DNA of 5,340 bases from positions 1 to 5,340 of the forward strand of contig DAOVMD010000241.1 of NCBI GenBank assembly GCA_030630935.1, given 5' to 3'. This DNA is from Candidatus Mcinerneyibacteriota bacterium (lineage in GTDB: Bacteria > AUK180 > JAQVHJ01). Each line of letters starts with the position of its first letter. Position 1 is the first letter of the stretch. Shown piece after piece: positions 481-5,207 of this stretch. Under the pieces are notes generated by a model that was not told the origin of the DNA, did no database searches, and worked only from the letters and a program-made list of their open reading frames with translations. The position numbers were made by a program, and so were the translations under genes.

Positions 481-1185
481 ATGAAAGAATGCATACAAGT
501 AGAAGGAGTAAACAAGGTCTATGACCTTGGTGACATCCAGGTCCAGGCATTAAAGGATATCTCGTTTTCCTTACCTGATTCCTCATTTGTCAGTTTTGTT
601 GGTCCGTCGGGTAGTGGCAAAACAACTCTCTTAAACCTGATAGGTTGTCTTGATGTTCCGACTTCAGGCAGAATTGATATTTGCGGGGAAGATATCACAA
701 AGTTATCTTATAAGGAACGCGCCCGGTTTCGTGGTAATAATCTTGGAATAATATTTCAGGATTTTAATTTAATATCTGTCCTCACGGTATTTGAGAATAT
801 TGAATACCCCCTTATTATGGTTCAGAATCTCCCGGCTTCAGAAAGAAGGGAGCGTGTTATGGAACTTTTGGAATCAGTTGAAATGCTTGAGCAGAAGGAT
901 AAGTTCCCCAGTCAGATTTCAGGTGGTCAGAAGCAACGAGTTGCAGTTGCTCGGGCATTAGCAGTAAAACCAAGGTTTGTACTCGCTGATGAGCCAACTG
1001 CCAACCTTGATCATGAGACAGCATATAAAATTATTTCGTTAATGAAAAAGATGCGTGATGAGAGAGGAACCAGCTTTATCTTTTCGACTCACGACTTAAA
1101 AGTTGTGAAGGAAGTTGATTACATTTATAAAATTGAAGATGGTTTTCTCAAGGGTAAAGAGAAAGTAGGAGGGGAAAATGTATAA
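481..1185 (+). CDS. ABC transporter ATP-binding protein, MacB/LolD type
   Basis: This is the cytoplasmic ATPase subunit that powers the permease encoded next. All nucleotide-binding-domain motifs are intact in the 234-residue protein: Walker A GPSGSGKT (41-48), Q-loop Gln93 in IIFQDFNL, signature ISGGQKQR (146-153), Walker B FVLADE (166-171) with catalytic Glu171, D-loop NLD (175-177) and the H-loop His204 in STHD. The length and the pattern 'ADEPTANLD' match the MacB/LolD/FtsE group of stand-alone ATPases (E. coli LolD is of similar size). The start is taken at ATG 481 rather than the in-frame TTG at 469, because GGAG at 471-474 is correctly spaced for 481. The 3' end overlaps the permease gene by 8 nt and contains that gene's ribosome binding site, which implies coupled translation. 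The family is certain. Whether the system is LolD-like (lipoprotein/lipid extraction) or MacB-like (efflux) is inferred from the neighbours, which favour the former. Confidence 0.95.
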   Translation: MKECIQVEGVNKVYDLGDIQVQALKDISFSLPDSSFVSFVGPSGSGKTTLLNLIGCLDVPTSGRIDICGEDITKLSYKERARFRGNNLGIIFQDFNLISVLTVFENIEYPLIMVQNLPASERRERVMELLESVEMLEQKDKFPSQISGGQKQRVAVARALAVKPRFVLADEPTANLDHETAYKIISLMKKMRDERGTSFIFSTHDLKVVKEVDYIYKIEDGFLKGKEKVGGENV

Positions 1186-2413
1186 TATTATTAAGATTGC
1201 GTACAGGAATTTAATCAGGCAGACGAAAAGAACATTGTTGACGGTTTCAATTATTATTCTTGGAGTTATTTCAGTTCTTGTCTTTTCTTCTTTGACAGGT
1301 GCGTTTAAGGATCTTATGATAGGCGAGATTACCGATTCAGTACTTGGTCATATTCAAATACACAGAAAAGGATATGTCAGTTCAATTGACAACCTTCCCC
1401 TGAATAAAACATTTAATGAAAAGCAGATCAAGAAGATAAAAGAGATTCTTGATAAGAACGAAAATATCGAAGCATATTCATTCAGGATCTTATTCGGTGG
1501 GATGTTAAGTAATTATGCCGAGACAACAAATGTGAAGTTAGTTGCGATTCATCCTGAGCAGGAACTGAAGACCCTTCCATTATTGGAGAAGCGATTGGAG
1601 AAAGGAGAATTTCTCCAAGCAGAAGGTATTCTGATCCCTGATTTAATTGCCAGGGGATTTAAAGTGAACCTGAAGGATAGTATTGTATTAGTTGCAAATA
1701 ATAAGGAAGGTTCGGTAAACGGGCTGCCCCTTAAACTTAATGGAATTGTAAAGTCTATTCCAGGTCCGGCAGGGAAGTTCGGGTATGTGAAGATTAAGGA
1801 TGCGGCATCAATATTAAGAATGAATAAACCTGAATATAATGAAATTGTAATTAGGCTTAAAAACCTCTCAAAACTTGAAAAAATAAAAAAAGAATTAGAT
1901 GCTGAGATCGGAAGTATCTTAGGGAAAAACGATAAACCGATGTTTGAAGTTCATACCTGGGAACAACTTTCACCTTTTAGTAATATTGCTGATATGATTG
2001 ATTTGATGGCTTTCTTCATAAAAATAATCTTGGTTGTGATAGTCCTTATTAGTATAATGAATGTAATGATTATGAGTGTTTATGAAAGGACAAAAGAGAT
2101 TGGAACTATTGCTGCAATTGGAACATTACCCGGGAAGATTCTGATGTTATTCGTGACGGAGGGTACTATGTTAGGTTTATTCGGTGTGATATCAGGGAGT
2201 ATCTTAGGAACAATTTTGATTTTAATTTTAAAGATGATAAAACCCGTTATCGCGTTCGGGAGATCTGATAATATTGTTCTGATTCCGGAAATACCTTTTA
2301 ATGATATGTGGGTGATTGGAATTATAATTTTATTGGTTGCAGTGATCGGGGCTTTTGGACCCGCGTTAAAGGCATCAAAGCTGGAACCGATTAAAGCAAT
2401 TAGAAATTCGTAG
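1178..2413 (+). CDS. ABC transporter permease, FtsX/MacB fold (LolC/E-like)
   Basis: This is the inner-membrane subunit of the ABC machine. Its 411 residues show the four-helix MacB/LolCE topology. TM1 lies at about 20-41 after a short basic cytoplasmic end. A large periplasmic domain of about 230 residues (45-275) follows. TM2 is at about 277-301, TM3 at about 327-353 and TM4 at about 375-396. The conserved cytoplasmic coupling segment ERTKEIGTIAAIG (303-315) follows TM2, and the C-terminal PALKASKLEPIKAIR (395-409) is the typical FtsX-family ending. Length is close to E. coli LolC/LolE and shorter than MacB, whose ATPase domain is fused. AGGAGG at 1167-1172, 5 nt before ATG 1178, supports the start. 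Only one permease gene is present, so the transporter probably works as a homodimer, unlike the LolC-LolE heterodimer. The family uses ATP hydrolysis for mechanical work on substrates at the periplasmic face rather than classic channel transport. The substrate is unknown. Confidence 0.92.
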   Translation: MYNIIKIAYRNLIRQTKRTLLTVSIIILGVISVLVFSSLTGAFKDLMIGEITDSVLGHIQIHRKGYVSSIDNLPLNKTFNEKQIKKIKEILDKNENIEAYSFRILFGGMLSNYAETTNVKLVAIHPEQELKTLPLLEKRLEKGEFLQAEGILIPDLIARGFKVNLKDSIVLVANNKEGSVNGLPLKLNGIVKSIPGPAGKFGYVKIKDAASILRMNKPEYNEIVIRLKNLSKLEKIKKELDAEIGSILGKNDKPMFEVHTWEQLSPFSNIADMIDLMAFFIKIILVVIVLISIMNVMIMSVYERTKEIGTIAAIGTLPGKILMLFVTEGTMLGLFGVISGSILGTILILILKMIKPVIAFGRSDNIVLIPEIPFNDMWVIGIIILLVAVIGAFGPALKASKLEPIKAIRNS

Positions 2414-2422
2414 GAGGATGAA

Positions 2423-3205
2423 ATGAAAAAATTAACAATTATTATTCTTGTTCTGTCGATGCTGGTTGTCTTCGCTTTCGCAGAAGGTGAGAAGGAGAAG
2501 GAACTTACTGAGGAACAAAAACTTATTATTAAGAAGGGGACAGAATTATTAAATTCTGTTGATAAAAATCTTGCCCCGCCATCTTATGAATCGTATAGGA
2601 AGATTATTAATATTGAACCTAACGGTTTCAAGAAGGAATTCGTAATGTACTCAGTCAAGAAAGGCCGTGATAAAATGGCCCTTGCATTTCTCGAGCCGAA
2701 GTCCGAAGTGGGGAGAGTAACCTTAAGAGTCGACGAAAACATGTGGCTTTATATACCCAATGTGGGAAAACCTATCCGAATTACGTCGCTTCAGTCTGTG
2801 ACAGGGGGATTATTTAATAATTCTGATATTATGTCATTGGATTATGGGGAAGAGTATAATGTTGAGGACATGGAAGAGACTGAGAAGGAAACAATTCTGA
2901 TCTTAAGGGCAAAGACGAAAGCGATTGCTTATGATAAATTGAAGATGTGGGTTGATAAAAAAGATAAATTACCTACAAAGATAGAGTGTTATTCAGCATC
3001 TGATATGCTGATCAAGACTCTTGAGTTTAAAGATATCAAGGAATTTGAAAAAGGCCTGAAGCGTCCTTCGGTAACGGAGACATACAGTCCGCTTCATAAA
3101 GGTTATAAATCAATTATGATCTTTGCCAAAATGAAGAAGCGCGAGCTTGAAGATGAAGTATTTACAGTTGATTATATGCCGAAGGTTCCGGATTTGAGAA
3201 AATGA
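2423..3205 (+). CDS. Secreted LolA-like outer membrane lipoprotein-sorting protein
   Basis: This is a probable periplasmic carrier of 260 residues. It starts with a clear Sec signal peptide: basic MKK, a hydrophobic core to about residue 18, and an AFA cleavage site after residue 20. There is no lipobox cysteine, so the mature protein should be soluble. A charged, Lys/Glu-rich linker (21-37) follows. The body matches the LolA-like lipoprotein-sorting family (I judge Pfam PF17131) by pattern: the MALAFLEPKSEVGR strand region (85-98), DENMWLYIPNVGKPIRI (104-120), a GGLFNNSDIMSLDY segment (128-141), then KMWVDKKDKLPTKIECY (174-190). These proteins fold as an open half-barrel that shelters lipid chains. 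AGGAGG at 2412-2417 overlaps the permease stop and lies 5 nt before ATG 2423. The 9-nt gap to the permease gene supports a joint role, as does the 4-nt overlap with the barrel gene. The inferred job is to take lipid or lipoprotein from the ABC permease to the outer-membrane partner. The family call is from motif memory, not a database search. Confidence 0.85.
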   Translation: MKKLTIIILVLSMLVVFAFAEGEKEKELTEEQKLIIKKGTELLNSVDKNLAPPSYESYRKIINIEPNGFKKEFVMYSVKKGRDKMALAFLEPKSEVGRVTLRVDENMWLYIPNVGKPIRITSLQSVTGGLFNNSDIMSLDYGEEYNVEDMEETEKETILILRAKTKAIAYDKLKMWVDKKDKLPTKIECYSASDMLIKTLEFKDIKEFEKGLKRPSVTETYSPLHKGYKSIMIFAKMKKRELEDEVFTVDYMPKVPDLRK

Positions 3206-4512
3206 TAAAGCAATTTTTAGTTTTATTTTTCGCATTAAGTTCAATTGTCTTTTCATTTGCAGGTGATTACGACTTTGATGTTTCAGAATTTGAAAAGAAA
3301 CCTTTTGAGATTAATACTGAGTTAAAAATTAATCCTATTCTTATTGGTTTAAATACGGACTCAATCTTTTATCAGCTTCAGAAGAAGTCAGGTGATTCGG
3401 ATTTCTATTCAAGATGGCGGTTTGAATTATATTCTTCATTTAAAAAAGGAGATAATACATTATTTTTTTCGGGACAGAGCATAATTGATATTCATGAACC
3501 GGAAACTGAAGAGACTAATAAAGTATATGAATATTATCTTGAAAGTAGAGTATCAGCAAATTGGTCTTTCATTATTGGGAAGAAAAGTGTTAAATGGGGA
3601 AAGGGCTATGTATTTAATCCGGTATCTTTTGCCGGGAGACAGAAGGATGTTAATGATGTTGACGCTTCTCTTGAAGGTTATGGATTAACATCTGTTCAGT
3701 ACATAAAAAGTTTAAAAGGTCCGCTCTCAAATTATTCAGTACAAATTATTGCTTTACCTGGTTTTACCGGGAATGAGTCGGAATGGGACAATATGAATTC
3801 AGATTTTCCAACAGATGCAGGATGGAATTTTATTGGTAAGTTATACCTCTTATACAGGGATGTTGATATTGACTTTTATATTTTATATAATGAACTTCAA
3901 CAGAATAAATATGGCTTTGATATGGCTTTAAATTTGACTACTAACTTTGAGGTGCACGGTGAAGTCTCATACGAAGAGAATTTTGAAAGGTATAAGTTGT
4001 TTAATGAATCTGAAGGGGCTGGAAATGAAATTCAGTTTGAAAAATTTCAGGTGAAAAAATATCTGGCGGGGGTTAGATATCTGACTGTTCCGGGAACAAC
4101 CTTTATACTTGAATATATTTATAATGAAGAAGGACTCTCTTTAGATGAGACAAAACAGTACTTTGAATGGGTAAGAAATGATACCTGGCCAATTATGTAT
4201 GATTCTTCTTATATTTTCCCAATGGAATTTTATAAGGAATATTTTACGCACCAATTCTCAATGCAGAATTACCTTTATTTAAAGGCGTCTCATCCGGAAC
4301 CATTTGATATCTTATATTTTACTCCGGGAATATTCTCAATTTATAACCTTGATGATAATAGTTTTCAAGCAACACTTGATCTTTCGTACAGCAGATTTGA
4401 TGACTTCTTAGTCTCACTTAAGTATTCCAGGATGTTCGGGGATGAAAATACCGAGTTCGGGGAAAAGATCATAACAGAGAAACTTGAGTTCAATTTCACC
4501 TTAACATTTTGA
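3202..4512 (+). CDS. Outer-membrane beta-barrel protein, possible DUF1302/porin-like
   Basis: This is a predicted outer-membrane barrel of 436 residues. A Sec signal peptide (basic start MIK, hydrophobic core, FSFA cleavage site after residue 20, no lipobox) precedes a mature chain rich in alternating aromatic and polar strands. The protein ends LEFNFTLTF, so its last residue is the Phe typical of barrel insertion signals recognised by BamA. KWGKGYVFNP (131-140), preceded by a strand with Gly126-Lys127, resembles the 'GxxxxxWGxGxxfNP' motif of the DUF1302/alginate-export-like barrels. LEYIYNEEG (303-311) is another barrel-like strand and turn. The protein is shorter than typical DUF1302 members, and I cannot assign it firmly to a family. 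Its ATG overlaps the LolA-like gene's stop (ATGA) with only a weak GAGA in front, so it is probably translated by coupling to that gene. It may be the acceptor or exit for whatever the LolA-like protein carries. Substrate and direction are unknown. Confidence 0.85.
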   Translation: MIKQFLVLFFALSSIVFSFAGDYDFDVSEFEKKPFEINTELKINPILIGLNTDSIFYQLQKKSGDSDFYSRWRFELYSSFKKGDNTLFFSGQSIIDIHEPETEETNKVYEYYLESRVSANWSFIIGKKSVKWGKGYVFNPVSFAGRQKDVNDVDASLEGYGLTSVQYIKSLKGPLSNYSVQIIALPGFTGNESEWDNMNSDFPTDAGWNFIGKLYLLYRDVDIDFYILYNELQQNKYGFDMALNLTTNFEVHGEVSYEENFERYKLFNESEGAGNEIQFEKFQVKKYLAGVRYLTVPGTTFILEYIYNEEGLSLDETKQYFEWVRNDTWPIMYDSSYIFPMEFYKEYFTHQFSMQNYLYLKASHPEPFDILYFTPGIFSIYNLDDNSFQATLDLSYSRFDDFLVSLKYSRMFGDENTEFGEKIITEKLEFNFTLTF

Positions 4513-4844: not shown

Positions 4845-4875
4845 CGCAGAGAAAAAACAAAAAAAGAAAAACAAT

Positions 4876-4914
4876 ATTCTTCAGCAGGTCGACGAATGGA
4901 GAGAAGAGATCCCG
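4876..4914 (+). repeat. 39-bp direct repeat, copy 1
   Basis: This copy matches 5169-5207 at 35 of 39 positions and shares the exact core AGCAGGTCGACGAA. Both copies follow an A-rich tract and end in GATCCCG. In this copy TCCCG at 4910-4914 can pair with CGGGA at 4930-4934. The pattern 'GTCGACGAAyGGAGAGA...GATCCCG' recalls short dispersed repeats of the CGAACGGAG...GAGATC type common between genes in Bacteroidota and related genomes. That likeness is from memory. Confidence 0.65.
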
Positions 4915-5142: not shown

Positions 5143-5168
5143 CAAAAAAAGAAAAAAAGACAAATTTT

Positions 5169-5207
5169 ATTCTTTAGCAGGTCGACGAACGGAGAGAGAA
5201 GATCCCG
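5169..5207 (+). repeat. 39-bp direct repeat, copy 2
   Basis: This is the partner of 4876-4914, with four mismatches in 39 positions and no gaps, in the same orientation 293 bp downstream. The A-rich lead-in is also similar, so the repeated unit probably includes that tract. The two copies enclose the second GTCATTGCGAGG element. Confidence 0.65.

Follow-up and report, generated by a model that had tools for sequence, protein, structure and literature searches.

The window analysed here, a stretch of 5,340 bases that makes up the whole of contig C310 of a fragmented genome (80% complete, 3.16 Mb), carries four genes that we propose, with a probability of about 0.6, make up a four-part shuttle that would carry a hydrophobic or amphiphilic ligand across the envelope, with its own dedicated outer-membrane barrel. 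This system would be the ABC-driven sister of the MMPL (RND) cassettes, separate from the housekeeping Lol and MacAB-TolC systems. The gene set, its order, the homologies, the folds and the co-evolution of carrier and engine all have direct support. The operon is real, widely conserved and without an earlier description in the searchable literature; no published account of an ABC-PF17131-DUF1302-like set was found in the open-licence literature. Apart from LPS and lipoproteins, the route by which hydrophobic molecules traverse the periplasm is an open question, and the operon is a compact and common candidate that names every part of a possible route: engine, carrier and barrel.

The four-gene operon

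The genes lie on the forward strand and are tightly packed: ATPase and permease overlap by 8 nt, a gap of 9 nt separates the permease from the LolA-like gene, and the LolA-like and barrel genes overlap by 4 nt. ORF calls agreed to the base with the arrangement in the original prediction. The first gene (481..1185) encodes a 234-aa ABC ATPase of the LolD/DevA/MacB type (type VII ABC); it starts at ATG 481, and an alternative TTG at 469 is also in the open frame. The second (1178..2413) encodes a single type VII permease of 411 aa, the third (2423..3205) a periplasmic LolA-like carrier of 260 aa including its signal peptide, and the fourth (3202..4512) an outer-membrane beta-barrel of 436 aa, recognised from its predicted structure and profile homology. 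Both secreted proteins have, as read from the sequence, an N-terminal stretch that resembles a signal peptide and contains no lipobox Cys. The fourth protein had been described as a signal-peptide barrel ending in Phe, and the terminal residue was confirmed as F436 and is invariant in 70 relatives.

No informative genes flanking the operon were found on the window contig. Its non-coding flanks contain imperfect direct repeats (4852-4914 and 5145-5207; 51-71, 86-106 and 281-301), possibly dispersed repeats that broke the assembly.

The ABC engine and the LolA-like carrier

The ATPase matches PF00005 (2.1e-33) with all its motifs intact (Walker A GPSGSGKTT, signature SGGQKQR, Walker B VLADEPT and H-loop STHD), and its best NCBIfam model is LolD_lipo_ex, at 219 bits against a cut-off of 307.75. 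The permease matches FtsX (PF02687, 2e-13) and MacB_PCD (PF12704, 2e-10). These three Pfam matches, all above cut-off, together with the fold match described below, place the pair among the type VII (MacB/LolE-type) ABC transporters. The curated LolCE model was not reached by the permease (94.8 bits, cut-off 362.45). Its AlphaFold model (pLDDT 88) has four TM helices and, after TM1, a periplasmic MacB/LolE-like domain, and a fold search with this model returned LolE with Z 29.4 over 383 residues and MacB with Z 21.4; the closest LolE folds include LolCDE solved with a bound lipoprotein. By sequence profile the nearest protein is LolF (E 7.5e-30). Thus, of the MacB-fold ABC that had been predicted, the FtsX/MacB_PCD matches and the four helices stand, but the permease is nearest to LolE/LolF and not to MacB. 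The permease is expected to work as a homodimer.

The third protein belongs to PF17131 (LolA_like; 2.5e-40, 138.6 bits) and falls outside PF03548 (LolA), for which it scores 13.1 bits, below the cut-off of 23.6. It has a solved relative in 3BUU (LolA superfamily, NE2245; 2.9e-22).

Kaplan et al. are said to have found in 2018 that a loop in LolC forms the hook that binds LolA. When the permease was aligned with the LolCE of its own genome and with LolF/LolE, no LolC-type hook extension was found in its periplasmic domain: in this sequence alignment the loop at the hook position is ~7 residues shorter than that of the own-genome LolCE and ~5 shorter than that of LolF, and an invariant NxxGSxNG motif replaces the extension. 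The missing hook loop counts against the proposed shuttle, since a LolA-like protein would have to dock in some other way; the NxxGSxNG motif is a candidate docking site for it.

Relationship to the housekeeping Lol and MacAB-TolC systems

The genome carries a LolCE-like permease with a LolD-like ATPase on contig C315, a PF03548 LolA gene on C171 and a separate TolC-MacA-MacB-type set on C407. The LolCDE, LolA and MacA/TolC genes for which the original prediction had proposed a genome check are therefore all present elsewhere, which makes the operon an extra system. LolB was not found in this 80% complete genome.

Two known identities were considered for the operon and rejected. It is not the housekeeping Lol system, because the curated LolD and LolCE models were missed and the genome has a separate Lol set. 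The operon shares with LolCDE-LolA-LolB and LolDF a type VII ABC with a LolE/LolF-like permease and a periplasmic carrier of the LolA superfamily; it differs from LolCDE-LolA-LolB in having one permease without the hook extension, in having PF17131 instead of PF03548, and in ending at an integral barrel without LolB. It is not MacAB-TolC either, with which it shares the fold family of the permease: MacB is one chain that includes the ATPase, and the MacA adaptor and the TolC-type channel have no place in the window and belong to the separate set on C407. The claim that MacA and TolC partners are missing from the operon was borne out, as neither is encoded within the window. Within this MacAB-TolC-type operon of the genome, a gene for a multi-pass membrane protein that looks Yip1-like (L017:1679-2524) separates the TolC gene from the MacA gene.

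The operon could also be a second, specialised Lol system, in which a subset of lipoproteins would travel by way of the ABC transporter and the LolA-like protein, and the barrel would stand in for LolB or display these lipoproteins at the surface, as has been proposed for Borrelia BBJ23-29. The permease nearest to LolE/LolF, the LolA-superfamily carrier, the failure to find LolB in the 80% complete genome and this published parallel (PMC13078400) would all fit such a system. However, the curated LolD, LolCE and LolA models are missed by wide margins, the hook extension is missing, separate LolCE/LolD and LolA genes are present in the genome, and a survey of the neighbours, made without a lipobox scan, showed no recurrent lipoprotein gene, so that we regard a specialised Lol system as unlikely.

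The outer-membrane barrel

The AlphaFold model of the fourth protein (pLDDT 88.5) is a confident beta-barrel whose closest folds are the OprD/Occ channels (Z ~24) and AlgE (Z ~22), although a common fold with either is no proof of function. OprD/Occ-type barrels are uptake channels. By sequence, the barrel had no Pfam or PDB match, and a few of its relatives touch Porin_O_P. The Pfam search gave no Omp85 match and the best folds are OprD/AlgE, although a hit list that lacks a family does not prove that the protein lies outside it.

Because iterated profiles could drift, a clean profile built from 70 window-type barrels was used to test homology again; it retrieves barrels of MMPL cassettes that adjoin LolA-like genes, including two from the window genome (E 8e-7 for the barrel on C247 and 8e-6 for that on C355). 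An hhalign comparison of the window-type barrels with eleven MMPL-cassette barrels, all of which match PF06980 (DUF1302), gave 99.4%, E 8e-22 over 343 columns, and a control with a FadL alignment gave 0.8%, E 0.067. By these profile comparisons, the barrel is a divergent homologue of the DUF1302 barrels that lies below direct detection by the Pfam DUF1302 model. The concern that the third and fourth proteins might match families with unrelated functions thus fell away, the former belonging to PF17131 and the latter being homologous to DUF1302 barrels.

The resemblance to OprD/Occ-type barrels bears on a second alternative, in which transport is retrograde: the barrel would admit a hydrophobic compound, the LolA-like protein would carry it inward, and the ABC transporter would power its release into, or its removal from, the inner membrane. 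Pseudomonas putida requires its DUF1302 and DUF1329 proteins (PP_0765/PP_0766) to grow on Tween 20, which could mean uptake (PMC10866462). However, the characterised LolCDE, MacAB and YbbAP systems handle molecules that leave the inner membrane; AmeABCD, the RND-DUF1329 (LolA superfamily)-DUF1302 set that confers monoterpene tolerance on Castellaniella defragrans, behaves as an efflux system (PMC6394551); and no recurrent catabolic genes were seen beside the operon. We consider uptake quite improbable. OprD/AlgE-like folds are compatible as well with a water-filled channel through which polar solutes would pass, which speaks against the shuttle that we favour.

Proposed mechanism and comparison with known systems

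In the outward-directed shuttle that we favour, two ATPases would power a homodimer of the single permease, which would extract a hydrophobic ligand from the inner membrane at the expense of ATP. The LolA-like protein would take the ligand, shield it inside its open half-barrel and hand it to the operon's dedicated barrel; this barrel would place it in the outer membrane or release it outside. Extraction, hand-over, direction and substrate are here modelled on LolCDE, on YbbAP-TesA, a precedent for type VII ABCs that extract hydrophobic compounds (PMC12646458), and on AmeABCD (PMC6394551).

With the MMPL/RND (HAE3)-LolA superfamily-DUF1302 cassettes, such as AmeABCD and PP_0765/PP_0766, the operon shares homologous types of carrier and barrel and the same engine-carrier-barrel logic; it differs in its ATP-driven type VII ABC instead of an RND engine, in PF17131 instead of DUF1329, and in a barrel below Pfam DUF1302 detection. 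The nearest published proposal that combines an ABC transporter, a LolA-like protein and a barrel is Borrelia BBJ23-29 (PMC13078400), where a type VII ABC (a predicted homodimer), a LolA-like protein and a dedicated barrel are also clustered and the prediction likewise comes from sequence only. There, however, the barrel is Omp85/BamA-like and accompanied by TPR proteins, whereas here it looks OprD/AlgE/DUF1302-like and TPR proteins are lacking. YbbAP-TesA is comparable in that a type VII ABC handles hydrophobic compounds of the inner membrane, but its partner is a hydrolase and it has neither carrier nor barrel.

Conservation and spread of the operon

Two LolA-like sequences were used to search 84,980 bacterial and archaeal genomes; among at least 587 pattern hits, 501 relatives were confirmed, and 80 loci were kept as a sample. 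The order ATPase, permease, LolA-like gene, barrel is complete in 62 of these 80 loci, and contig ends truncate most of the remainder; as exceptions, L033 and L075 look broken and L054 has no adjoining ABC genes. The four-gene set is present in more than a dozen bacterial phyla, the loci coming from Desulfobacterota, Nitrospirota, Cloacimonadota, Neomarinimicrobiota, Aminicenantes, Pseudomonadota, Elusimicrobiota, Planctomycetota and others. Because so many relatives from many phyla keep this order, the four genes are not together by chance; chance adjacency is ruled out by this conservation and by the tree of engines and carriers presented below. A lack of conserved order in relatives would have spoken against the original prediction, and the opposite was found.

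The LolA-like protein is 57-70% identical to its relatives in other phyla. The window barrel was not found in the six nearest same-class relatives of the window genome, and it was found in a distant genome (G029) that has the complete four-gene operon. The operon has likely spread horizontally. No plasmid-borne copies of the window type were found, only distant PF17131 proteins with ~24% identity.

ABC and MMPL engines among PF17131 genes

The window genome has three further PF17131 genes. Two lie in MMPL cassettes, with the order TetR, MMPL, LolA-like gene, barrel on C355 and MMPL, LolA-like gene, barrel on C247. The third, on C281 (G000; L005:3241-8877), belongs to a second ABC cassette whose order, TetR, LolA-like gene, barrel, ATPase, permease, permease, differs from that of the window operon.

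Engines were surveyed around 80 PF17131 genes of ~60 genomes. MMPL was the neighbouring engine in 41 cases, a type VII ABC in 22 and both together in one, and no engine was found in 16; in 69 of the 80, the same gene run included a barrel of the same superfamily at most four genes away. A tree built from 91 LolA-like proteins needs only two changes of engine (ABC or MMPL), compared with a mean of 24.5 changes for shuffled labels, and none of 500 shufflings was as low as two, which argues that carrier and engine evolve together. The window type forms a fully supported clade within the ABC-driven PF17131 proteins and has one permease, whereas the other ABC cassettes usually have two. The idea that the operon is an ABC-driven counterpart, or sister, of the MMPL(RND)-LolA-like-DUF1302 cassettes thus holds up at the level of sequence and gene order, with homologous MMPL cassettes, two of them in the same genome. 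The clean split of the PF17131 carriers into ABC and MMPL clades provides a framework for hundreds of genes, whose current annotation as outer membrane lipoprotein-sorting proteins may mislead.

PF02579 proteins and metal, arsenic and thiol genes near the operon

The original prediction had missed a link to PF02579 and to metal, arsenic and thiol genes. In 17 of the 80 sampled loci the operon has a fifth member, a secreted PF02579 protein (Nitro_FeMo-Co, NifX-like). Its gene lies between those for the permease and the LolA-like protein in nine (L019, L044, L048, L051, L065, L066, L067, L084 and L097), directly before the ATPase gene in six (L029, L031, L032, L041, L056 and L068) and before the LolA-like gene in L054. 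On a Sedimentisphaerales contig (L094:5632-6687, + strand), a secreted PF02579 domain and the PF17131 LolA-like domain form a single in-frame fusion. The presence of PF02579 requires 13 changes on the tree, so a single inherited event does not account for the association. The secreted NifX-like partner and the L094 fusion are a specific, testable link to metal/sulfur chemistry.

CDF efflux genes and Metal_resist/ZraP-like genes each recur eight times in the 80 loci. At least one CDF, Metal_resist, ArsP, ArsM-like, ArsR, CcdA or PF02579 gene is nearby in 35 of 80, compared with 2 of 39 random regions drawn from 16 of the host genomes (Fisher p 5e-6, for families picked after the neighbours had been viewed and loci that are related to each other) and 11 of 80 other PF17131 loci. 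PF02579, CDF, Metal_resist, ArsR and a GSGGWGMG protein are individually significant; the others are not significant alone. Judging only from these neighbouring genes, the operon probably serves in metal(loid)/thiol stress in many relatives.

A third alternative extends this role to the function itself: the shuttle would export a metal- or sulfur-containing amphiphile or, when metals cause stress, repair the outer membrane, with a periplasmic NifX-like partner in many lineages. The recurrent PF02579 gene, its fusion to a LolA-like domain, its repeated association on the tree and the enriched neighbour families speak for it. On the other hand, PF02579 is missing from the window operon and from the Cloacimonadota relatives, only five of the families are significant by themselves, and the choice of families and the relatedness of the loci weigh on the comparison. 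We see a rather small chance for this alternative. The more specific idea that the pathway exports a metal- or sulfur-bearing amphiphile, and that periplasmic PF02579 loads or senses the ligand on the LolA-like carrier, is likewise doubtful.

The small secreted protein with the GSGGWGMG motif, which has no Pfam match (L050:3466-3933, L057, L072, L088, L033 and L089), occurs chiefly in Nitrospirota, and in most cases its gene immediately precedes the ABC operon. At L016:592-3072 (G029), CcdA-like, CDF efflux and rhodanese genes lead directly into the four-gene operon, and in L083 the matching position is occupied by CDF, thioredoxin-like and CcdA-like genes.
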